Positions 46,867 to 58,336 of a stretch of DNA of 64,000 nucleotides are shown here, one piece after another. The notes under the pieces were generated by a model, which worked only from the letters and a program-made list of their open reading frames with translations, was not told the DNA's origin and searched no databases. Positions within the stretch are counted from its first letter, which is position 1, and each line of letters begins with the position of its first letter. Made by a program: the position numbers and the translations under genes. The stretch is taken from positions 2,756,873 through 2,820,872 of the forward strand of contig NZ_CP017074.1 of assembly GCF_001717465.1 (NCBI RefSeq). The letters run 5' to 3'. This DNA comes from Luteimonas sp. JM171. Lineage in GTDB: Bacteria; Pseudomonadota; Gammaproteobacteria; Xanthomonadales; Xanthomonadaceae.

Positions 46867-50194
<3,328 letters not shown>

Positions 50195-50268
50195 CTATCC
50201 AACCAAGGCCACTGATCGGGGCGGTCGGCTGCGGTCGAAGTTGGCTTCGGACGGACGCCGCGCCCTGC

Positions 50269-50359
50269 CGGCGGGGGTGTCGCTTTTCGCGCGGCAGGGC
50301 GTCCTGCCCTGACGCGCGCGCAATACATCCATGTATTGCTTGTCGCGACACCCCCGCCG
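50269..50359. repeat. Multibranched palindromic element (three-way junction)
   Basis: Outer stem of 15 perfect bp: CGGCGGGGGTGTCGC (50269-50283) with 50345-50359. Inside, hairpin 1 is CAGGGC-gtcct-GCCCTG (50295-50311), extended by a CGCG/CGCG pair around one mismatch; hairpin 2 is GCAATACAT-cc-ATGTATTGC (50320-50339). The segment GCCCTGCC at 50262-50269 can also pair with 50293-50300, giving an alternative fold. Confidence 0.75.
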
Positions 50360-50466
50360 ACAGGTCACGGCTCACCCCGACGGGAAAATCTGCCGCTTCG
50401 CTGCAGAAGGCCCCACGATGAGCGTCAGCCTCCGGCGCAACACGGGGCGCCACGTTTCCCTCCGGA

Positions 50467-50584
50467 GCCGAGCCCCGTCGTGGCCGGGAGGCCTTTTCGC
50501 GTAAGCAAAGGAGGAGGCCGGAGCGAAGCGCAGGCCGGGGGACATGGAGCGAAAAGGCCTCCCGGCCGCGACGGGGCCCGTCAG
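50467..50584. repeat. Covarying long hairpin element, copy 1
   Basis: Arms 50472-50500 and 50549-50577 (29 nt) pair fully apart from one G-T wobble (50481:50568). The 48-nt loop contains GTAAGCAAAGGAGGAGG (50501-50517), an imperfect inner hairpin (GGCC 516-519 / GGCC 533-536, using the last three digits) and CCGGGGGACATGGA (50535-50548). It starts 27 bp after the zipA stop. It is homologous in inverted orientation to 58217-58336. Confidence 0.85.
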
Positions 50585-50610
50585 GTCACCGGGGACCCGG
50601 GCGATGCCAG

Positions 50611-51357
50611 TTACCAGCGCGGGCTGCGGGTAATCGGCGGGGCTTCCCGCTCGCGGTCGTAGTTGCGCAGCTCCTCGCGCAGGTGCGCCACCCGCTGGCG
50701 CCCCAGCGCATTGCGCTGCTCATCCAGCAGCACGCCATCAAGCAGCTCGCTCATCCGCACCGCCGTGGGATGCATCGCATCCCAGGCATCCAGCGCCGGC
50801 ACCGGCGCCGGCAGGGTCAGGAAGAACGCGATCGCCGGCGTTTCCAGCTCCTGGATCTCGCTCATCTCGAAGCTCCCCGGCTTCTTGATGTTGGCCACGC
50901 TGAAGATCGGCCCCTGCTCCGGACGCCCCTCCACCAAGCGGTGGAAGACGTTCATGTGGCCGTAGGTCAGCCCCGCCTTCTCCGCCGCCACCACGATGTC
51001 CGGCCCGCGCAGCACCTGGCCGGCGCGGGCAGCGATGTACAGGGTGACGATCTTGTCGAACTCGGTGCTCACCCGGCGGCCCAGCTCGGCGTTGGGGCTG
51101 GCCGGCTCGCCGACGGCGCTGTCGAACAGGTCCATCTCCGCCTGCTCTTCCGCCGGCTGGTCGTCGACCGCCTCGGCGAGCTCCTGTTCGAGCTGCGCGC
51201 CCAGGGTCGGTTCCACCCGCTCGCCGCCGCGCGGCTCGGACGCCACCCGCCGCCCCTGCGAATTGCGCTGCGGGCGGGTGCCGAAGTACCAGATGGCGGC
51301 GATGAGGATGACACCGGCGATCGCGATCGCGATCTGCATCAGCCGGACATCGGACAT
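50611..51357 (-). CDS. zipA: Cell division protein ZipA
   Basis: 248 residues. One N-terminal membrane segment (about 8-26, IAIAIAGVILIAAIWYFG), a charged Pro/Glu-rich linker (about 30-90), and the C-terminal ZipA domain (about 100-230; VLRGPDIVVAAEKAGLTYGHM and FSVANIKKPGSFEM) that binds the FtsZ tail. It anchors the Z ring to the inner membrane. GGAGGA lies before the ATG. Located between smc and ligA, the gammaproteobacterial order. The linker is shorter than in E. coli (328 residues in total). Confidence 0.93.
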   Translation of the reverse strand: MSDVRLMQIAIAIAGVILIAAIWYFGTRPQRNSQGRRVASEPRGGERVEPTLGAQLEQELAEAVDDQPAEEQAEMDLFDSAVGEPASPNAELGRRVSTEFDKIVTLYIAARAGQVLRGPDIVVAAEKAGLTYGHMNVFHRLVEGRPEQGPIFSVANIKKPGSFEMSEIQELETPAIAFFLTLPAPVPALDAWDAMHPTAVRMSELLDGVLLDEQRNALGRQRVAHLREELRNYDREREAPPITRSPRW

Positions 51358-58216: not shown

Positions 58217-58336
58217 CTGATGGGCCCTGCCGCGGCCCGCAGGCCTTTACGCTTCATGTCCCCCGGAATCCGCCTGCGGCGGATTCCTCCTCCTTTACTT
58301 ACGCGTAAAGGCCTGCGGGCCACGGCAGGGCTCGGC
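58217..58336. repeat. Covarying long hairpin element, copy 2
   Basis: Arms 58224-58252 and 58303-58331 (29 nt) pair except 58233:58322 (C-A). The 50-nt loop holds CATGTCCCCCGG (58255-58266), a perfect 10-bp inner hairpin (GGAATCCGCC 58265-58274, loop TGC, GGCGGATTCC 58278-58287) and CCTCCTCCTTTACTTAC (58286-58302). It lies in the convergent gap between the ABC exporter and DUF488. Compared with copy 1 in the same orientation, five stem pairs differ and all keep pairing. Confidence 0.85.

Follow-up and report, generated by a model that had tools for sequence, protein, structure and literature searches.

The described systems closest to the elements considered here are the REP, BIME and REPIN repeats, the MITEs, and the BRE repeats of betaproteobacteria. 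REP hairpins have stems of 6-13 bp, according to the section of PMC3733652 that describes them. BRE elements (Hot et al., 2011) are about 90 bp long, GC-rich, chromosomal and mostly intergenic, are patchily distributed in betaproteobacteria and are suspected of past mobility; where they share a locus they form tandem repeats with copy-number variation (from the portion of the description in PMC3110155 that deals with these features). The Correia/NEMIS elements of Neisseria are MITEs whose transcripts are processed by RNase III, with cleavage at the terminal repeats, as covered in part of a MITE review (PMC10969869); the word ISL3 is absent from that review.

The window, a 64,000-nucleotide stretch of the chromosome of Luteimonas sp. 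JM171 (the present genome, G000 in the locus names below), contains two copies of a large folded element and, facing the first of them, a hairpin of a second class. The features are as follows.

50257..50371, minus strand: facing neighbour of copy 1, a hairpin of the second class with a long outer stem and two inner hairpins, its core containing GCAATACATGGATGTATTGC
50467..50584, GTAAG strand plus: copy 1, a type A hairpin (covariance model, 102.8 bits)
50469..50500, plus strand: left arm of the outer stem of copy 1 (inverted repeat)
50501..50517, plus strand: conserved core segment 1 of copy 1, GTAAGCAAAGGAGGAGG (sequence and family alignment)
50535..50548, plus strand: conserved core segment 2 of copy 1, CCGGGGGACATGGA (sequence and family alignment)
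50549..50580, plus strand: right arm of the outer stem of copy 1 (inverted repeat)
58217..58336, GTAAG strand minus: copy 2, a type A hairpin (covariance model, 104.4 bits)
58224..58252, minus strand: one arm of the outer stem of copy 2 (inverted repeat)
58253..58266, minus strand: core segment 2 of copy 2, CCGGGGGACATGAA as read on that strand (sequence and family alignment)
58286..58302, minus strand: core segment 1 of copy 2, GTAAGTAAAGGAGGAGG as read on that strand (sequence and family alignment)
58303..58331, minus strand: other arm of the outer stem of copy 2 (inverted repeat)

After reversal of copy 1 the two copies align over their whole length, at the intervals that a first-pass annotation had assigned to them, and each of the five stem differences that it had reported as compensated (58228/58327, 58230/58325, 58238/58317, 58240/58315 and 58249/58306) can be read directly in the sequence as such. 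The inner hairpin likewise differs in sequence between the copies while its pairing is kept. When folded, both strands of both copies outperform 200 of 200 shuffled sequences (z -7.3 to -11.0). The hairpins may be regulatory RNA. We consider the best explanation, with a probability of roughly 0.55, to be a family of structured elements in facing pairs that, within the genus, forms the interior of a MITE moved by ISL3 transposases and whose hairpins persist as folded RNA. The repeats, the covariation, the strand asymmetry, the facing pairs and the terminal repeats in common with an ISL3 insertion sequence are direct observations.

The core segment 1 pattern, with at most two mismatches, has 53 copies in the 2.99-Mb chromosome (26 forward and 27 reverse), as against a single match for the reversed-pattern control; a two-block pattern has 50 exact copies against none for its control, and a covariance model of 73 sequences also yields 53 matches in this genome. 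The finding of only these two copies, named beforehand as an outcome that would count against a selected structure, did not occur. Along the chromosome (G000:C1), 24 of the 36 element loci lie within 1.10-2.12 Mb and none in 2.12-2.75 Mb. One core is present in this genome inside two unrelated outer stems, type A (the window copies) and type B, and among the matches listed it is found in other outer stems in Rhodocyclaceae, Sulfuritalea, Burkholderiales, Roseateles, Piscinibacter, Lysobacter, Luteimonas and others, some of the pattern matches, such as that in Brevibacillus, being chance ones that lack the second core segment. Of the 52 genomes of the genus searched with the covariance model, 18 (the present one among them) have 2 to 71 copies each and the other 34 have none; across the class, 3 of 274 genomes including this one have matches, one of the three with a single weak match, and the filters used in both searches lose weak matches. 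Carriage on plasmids, phages or viral contigs was ruled out by the absence of matches there: neither the 72,556 plasmids nor the 50,697 phages searched match copy 1, and viral contigs contain no exact match to the two-block pattern. These large folded elements form a chromosomal family with hosts scattered over the beta- and gammaproteobacteria. Rfam 15 returned no match at any gathering score for the window and 10 related loci (the best sub-threshold match at copy 1 reaches 22.4 bits against a cut-off of 268), in agreement with the earlier remark that no named family fits, and the family was not found in print by the literature searches made.

Support for a conserved fold comes from an alignment drawn from 160 distinct elements among the matches listed. 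Of these, 151 leave at most three positions unpaired among the inner 20 pairs of the stem; 75 spread over genomes were picked from the 151, four were dropped (one identical to window copy 1) and the two window copies were added, giving 73 rows. The covariation score over these 73 sequences is 0.909, compared with 0.209 for shuffled rows and 0.115-0.191 for slid partners, and 858 cells are changed on both sides yet paired, compared with 279 after shuffling. Paired cells amount to 93.8% in the 73 rows (54.7% shuffled), a percentage that preselection for pairing inflates. Double changes are found in 33 of 33 pairs, a weak measure when taken alone (shuffle mean 30.4, with 2 of 500 shuffles reaching 33, and slid partners giving 27-30); because this count discriminates little, the argument for covariation rests on the score and on the doubly changed cells. 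The covariance model and the covariation scoring thus agree with the initial proposal of a selected, covarying structure, and the structure is repeated genome-wide. Orthologous loci of different species retain the composite, with pairing maintained through double changes. Sixteen hairpin comparisons in five groups contain 45 pairs that are doubly changed and paired, 28 singly changed and paired, and 19 broken, although the comparisons are not independent and one wholesale stem replacement supplies 16 of the 45 double changes.

The two core segments had been described as nearly fixed loops, which holds for the pair in the window; in the wider family the loop positions vary in a correlated way. 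Among the 124 of 138 sequences that fit the expression, position 4 of GTAAG and the T of CATG form A-T in 110 and G-C in 14, with no exception, and two positions of the GGAGG / GGGGGA part vary together less strictly. Since core positions covary, the conserved segments have the appearance of a structured internal loop and not of free loops. They are non-palindromic, yet between species they are more conserved than the stems. In Burkholderiales copies the core has a further conserved insert, around CAAACAGTCCTG-GGACTGTTTG, which lies between its GGGGGA and CATGGA motifs (L087:641-817, L113:4220-4611, L192:2248-2422, L090, L196 and L200).

The two strands of the stems are not equivalent. Over a fixed 24 bp in 128 distinct stems, the GTAAG strand has 2761 Watson-Crick, 200 G·T, 23 A·C and 88 other pairs; three of 131 stems had been dropped for having too few Watson-Crick pairs, by a filter that makes no distinction between wobble and A·C, and an antisense match (L181:765-872 +) had been excluded beforehand. 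The excess of G·T over A·C has a binomial p of 2e-36, although the rows are related and the count should not be read as a probability; collapsed by genome and position it is 145 G·T against 25 A·C, with a stem-end rule that slightly favours G·T. Any process at the level of duplex DNA should leave the mismatches symmetric, which they are not, and the GTAAG strand is therefore the constrained one, either as RNA or as single-stranded DNA.

The elements usually come as two hairpins in inverted, facing orientation, which differ in their outer stems but have one structured core in common. Neighbouring covariance-model matches less than 700 bp apart face each other in 61 of 61 cases (15 further matches are single), and pattern neighbours within 1500 bp do so in 50 of 50, in 14 genomes, with their GTAAG ends toward each other; the 61 and the 50 pairs overlap as sets. 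Although the outer stems of the pair members differ, about 11 bases by the core are common to both in G003 and G068. In betaproteobacteria the gap between the hairpins is 36-49 bp in 40 of 44 pairs, and many of the copies that seem single there are accompanied by a hairpin whose core has diverged. Not every locus of the present genome retains the pair: 17 of its 36 loci hold one and 19 have a single copy with the first core, for which no weaker partner was found in the loci and the window searched. Copy 2 has no detected facing partner with the first core. The second-class hairpin that faces copy 1 has a core unrelated to the first, a GC-rich other inner hairpin and variable outer stems. Its core has seven copies in the genome (G000:C1 717747, 1296809, 1340559, 1890432, 2276323, 2353730 and 2807193), beside type A at three sites and beside an apparent remnant at a fourth. 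Two loci of JAAYXJ, L084 and L169, resemble, by comparison with L028 and L003, a facing pair collapsed to one hairpin with one arm of each type; this form may be a real recombination product or an assembly error of the metagenome bin.

An ISL3-type vehicle is well supported within the genus. In the copy-rich genome G013 (19 loci) the pair lies inside a longer unit, the fullest examples of which are bounded by GGTTCATCTCCCAACTCCGGGG and CCCTCAGTTGGGAGAAGAACC. An end scan of the loci collected, allowing 3 substitutions per end, recovered 13 bounded units of 339-611 bp, and 12 of them (339-460 bp; nine in G013, two in G003 and one in DXCY, Ca. Luteimonas excrementigallinarum) contain hairpin cores, as a pair or as one hairpin, between GGTTCWTCTCCCAACT-like terminal repeats. 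In G013 composites, a score of at least 11 of 14 matches is attained by four of six left ends and five of six right ends, compared with 0 and 0 on the opposite strand and 2 of 4000 random windows. The autonomous counterpart is present in the genome under study as an ISL3 element of about 1.3 kb (G000 C1:678,390-679,698) with the ends GGTTCATCTCCCAAGTCCGGGG and CCCTCAGTTGGGAGAAGAACC, which differ from the G013 forms at 1 of 22 bases on the left and 0 of 21 on the right. Against NF033550, whose cut-off is 180, the transposase of this element reaches 334 bits, and the two transposases tested are both ISL3 by NCBIfam. The 12 hairpin elements of the relatives thus match an autonomous ISL3 element in their terminal inverted repeats and have no transposase inside, 339-460 bp being too short for a gene of about 1.2 kb, as would be expected of ISL3-family MITEs. 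The first-pass annotation had named, as an outcome that would count against it, a MITE whose ends explain the palindromes; a MITE does exist in relatives, but its terminal repeats are separate from the hairpins.

The 8-bp target duplication is exact in two autonomous ISL3 elements of this genome, the 1.3-kb element (CAACTTTT) and a second type (AAAAAGAA), which has a type A hairpin about 75 bp away. Among the 12 hairpin elements the duplication is exact in one, L260 (TTTTTCTT); most of the others are flanked on either side by T- or A-runs only, and the elements L066, L270 and L275 are misfits. Bounded units sit in T- or A-runs, several of them, as judged by eye, directly after GC-rich hairpins, and in an empty-site comparison of L121 with the present genome the element alone matched and the flanks did not. 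Another ISL3 copy of the second type is inserted within a type B core (L297:919-2224, G000:C1 about 103.5-104.8 kb), an arrangement that may be an assembly artefact, as the sequence there has one N with an exact 160-bp repeat on either side. No recognisable terminal repeat lies beside either window copy, and in 12 composites of this genome the level of 11 of 14 matches is reached by 1 left end and 0 right ends, the opposite-strand control also giving 1 and 0. The ISL3 copies with both ends seen (L299, L301, L303 and L306) have no hairpin inside, and the hairpin match in L302 lies outside the ISL3 element. Presence of ISL3 does not track that of the hairpins: an over-cut-off match is found in 7 of the 18 genomes that have hairpins and in 11 of the 34 that lack them, and G013, with the most copies of all, has no such match.

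The main rival would have the folded strand act as single-stranded DNA, with the facing hairpins as substrate of a putative trans-acting enzyme, as REPs and REPINs are for RAYT, and with the ISL3 ends as a later vehicle or chance host. We regard this as unlikely, although several features suit it: facing pairs and the narrow betaproteobacterial gap resemble a two-ended DNA substrate, the spread over genomes is sporadic both in copy number and within the genus, and no transposon ends of the ISL3 kind were seen by eye in betaproteobacteria. Against it, no gene for such an enzyme was found beside the elements among the recurrent neighbours scanned, which are metabolic and transport genes. A search for the enzyme through these neighbours gave, in 8 scanned representatives, acyl-CoA dehydrogenase, thiolase, 3-hydroxyacyl-CoA dehydrogenase and ABC transporter genes and no recombinase, and a facing pair 6.8 kb apart at L181, considered as an autonomous element, was set aside on finding metabolic, transport and hemerythrin functions in the 6 genes scanned there. 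The Y1 transposase (PF01797) has no match in G000, G013, G036 or G064; over a sample of 46 genomes it is found in 11 of 15 with hairpins and 18 of 31 without. The initial suggestion of a REP/BIME-like mobile palindrome therefore survives as to architecture (inverted pairs, intergenic, dozens of copies) but not as to kind, and membership in REP/RAYT was ruled out, there being no Y1/RAYT transposase in this genome.

Long near-perfect palindromes are known substrates of arm-to-arm correction by template switching. The hairpins suit such correction, and they could accordingly be dead ISL3-type MITEs of no function whose palindromes are kept paired by template switching at replication forks; that element ends are unrecognisable in this genome's copies would fit as well. 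We think this improbable, as a duplex-level process gives no ground for G·T outnumbering A·C by 9:1 on a single strand, and the non-palindromic core surpasses the stems in conservation between species and covaries at specific positions.

Mean pairwise identity in the present genome (19 entries, with three loci counted in both orientations) is 0.82/0.81 for the hairpins and 0.26 for the spacer (shuffled 0.16), 0.38 for the nearest 40 left bases (shuffled 0.25) and 0.22-0.25 for the other flanks (shuffled 0.21-0.24). With the hairpins alike, the spacer and flanks diverged and almost no terminal repeats recognisable, the folds seem to have outlived the vehicle.

Of 115 sites assessed by a crude reading-frame score, with no background count, 55 lie between convergent genes, 49 between tandem and 7 between divergent genes, with 4 undetermined. 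By the first pattern, seemingly single copies in tandem genes are antisense in 25 cases and sense in 13, for which reason a simple sense-RNA rule is disfavoured; many of these copies have a diverged partner. Readings of the GGA-rich core as a translation start or an RsmA/CsrA sponge, motifs familiar from those systems, were set aside because every pair has both orientations. Orthologous composites lie between tandem thiolase and 3-hydroxyacyl-CoA dehydrogenase genes at L150, L158 and L178, in related MAGs, and a composite lies beside a thiolase gene at L177 (the assignments are by Pfam for the thiolases of L177 and L082 and the dehydrogenase of L158, and by homology for the other loci of that group). 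That the elements are bidirectional transcription terminators or mRNA 3'-end protectors serving the flanking genes is just as doubtful as the template-switching account, since the siting mostly at gene 3' ends with few divergent regions, the terminator T-runs among the targets in relatives and the very stable folds have to be set against an absence of terminator-like sites from copy 1 and the sequence around it (50150-50700; 0.4 expected), an unexplained conserved core and the equally unexplained composites between tandem genes at L150, L158 and L178.

If the hairpins are instead the persisting interior of an ISL3-moved MITE, transposases of the ISL3 family would move a non-autonomous MITE with its hairpin pair into T-runs, several of which are those of transcription terminators at gene ends, and the window copies would have arrived in the same way. 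The vehicle would then decay, and the hairpins would be kept because the GTAAG strand works as folded RNA past gene ends, the shared core most probably serving as binding site for a putative protein that protects or processes the transcript end. It counts against an RNA function that one hairpin of a facing pair is antisense to any single transcript. The paired unit has one sense hairpin per direction, so any transcript through it would carry one core in the constrained orientation, in the distal hairpin. The most likely use of the hairpins is as target of a candidate core-specific RNA-binding partner acting on 3' regions. A broader formulation is offered tentatively, at less than even odds: a structured family with a facing pair of fixed geometry and a putative core-binding partner, carried by various transposon vehicles, of which ISL3-type MITEs would be the one in Luteimonas. 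If true, the family would amount either to a bidirectional RNA device, borne by transposons and independent of orientation, or to a REPIN-like system whose partner is not a RAYT. The interspersed repeats of bacteria are commonly classed with the REPs or taken for dead MITEs; in this family, measurement shows one strand to be the folded and constrained one. The fold appears to outlive its transposon, which makes testable the question of whether small transposons seed chromosomes with functional structured RNAs, and the covariance model, together with the 18 genomes that have the elements and the 34 that do not, gives a handle on the protein that would read the core.

Compared with the systems described at the outset, the elements resemble MITEs, in the general features given in the relevant part of the review (PMC10969869), in having terminal inverted repeats common with an autonomous ISL3 element, a length of about 400 bp, no transposase inside, AT-rich intergenic targets and predicted folded transcripts. 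Correia/NEMIS elements are likewise MITEs; their transcripts are processed by RNase III, and they differ in being cleaved at the terminal repeats (same part of PMC10969869). Unlike in MITEs generally, the conserved part here is the internal covarying hairpins and not the ends, and the hairpins occur also in betaproteobacteria, where no such ends were seen. To our knowledge, Correia/NEMIS elements have no shared core or facing hairpin pair. With REP, BIME and REPIN repeats the family shares strand-specific hairpins, inverted pairs, intergenic siting, dozens of copies and a sporadic distribution among related genomes. It differs from REPs in its stem of about 26-30 bp, as against 6-13 bp, and in the place of its motif: the GTAG/GTGG tetranucleotide of REPs tags one end of a short hairpin (REP features as given in that section of PMC3733652), whereas GTAAG lies in an internal loop inside the 26-30 bp stem. 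Each pair, moreover, has two different stems, and several copy-rich genomes have no Y1 transposase. BREs are similar in size, GC-richness, chromosomal and intergenic siting, patchy betaproteobacterial spread and suspected past mobility, but form tandem arrays, whereas 61 of 61 neighbouring pairs are inverted here, a distinction drawn from the BRE description (PMC3110155, same portion), and the two may prove to be one family. Carriage of a MITE by a known transposon family is ordinary; a facing, strand-specific, covarying pair of hairpins in beta- and gammaproteobacteria is new.
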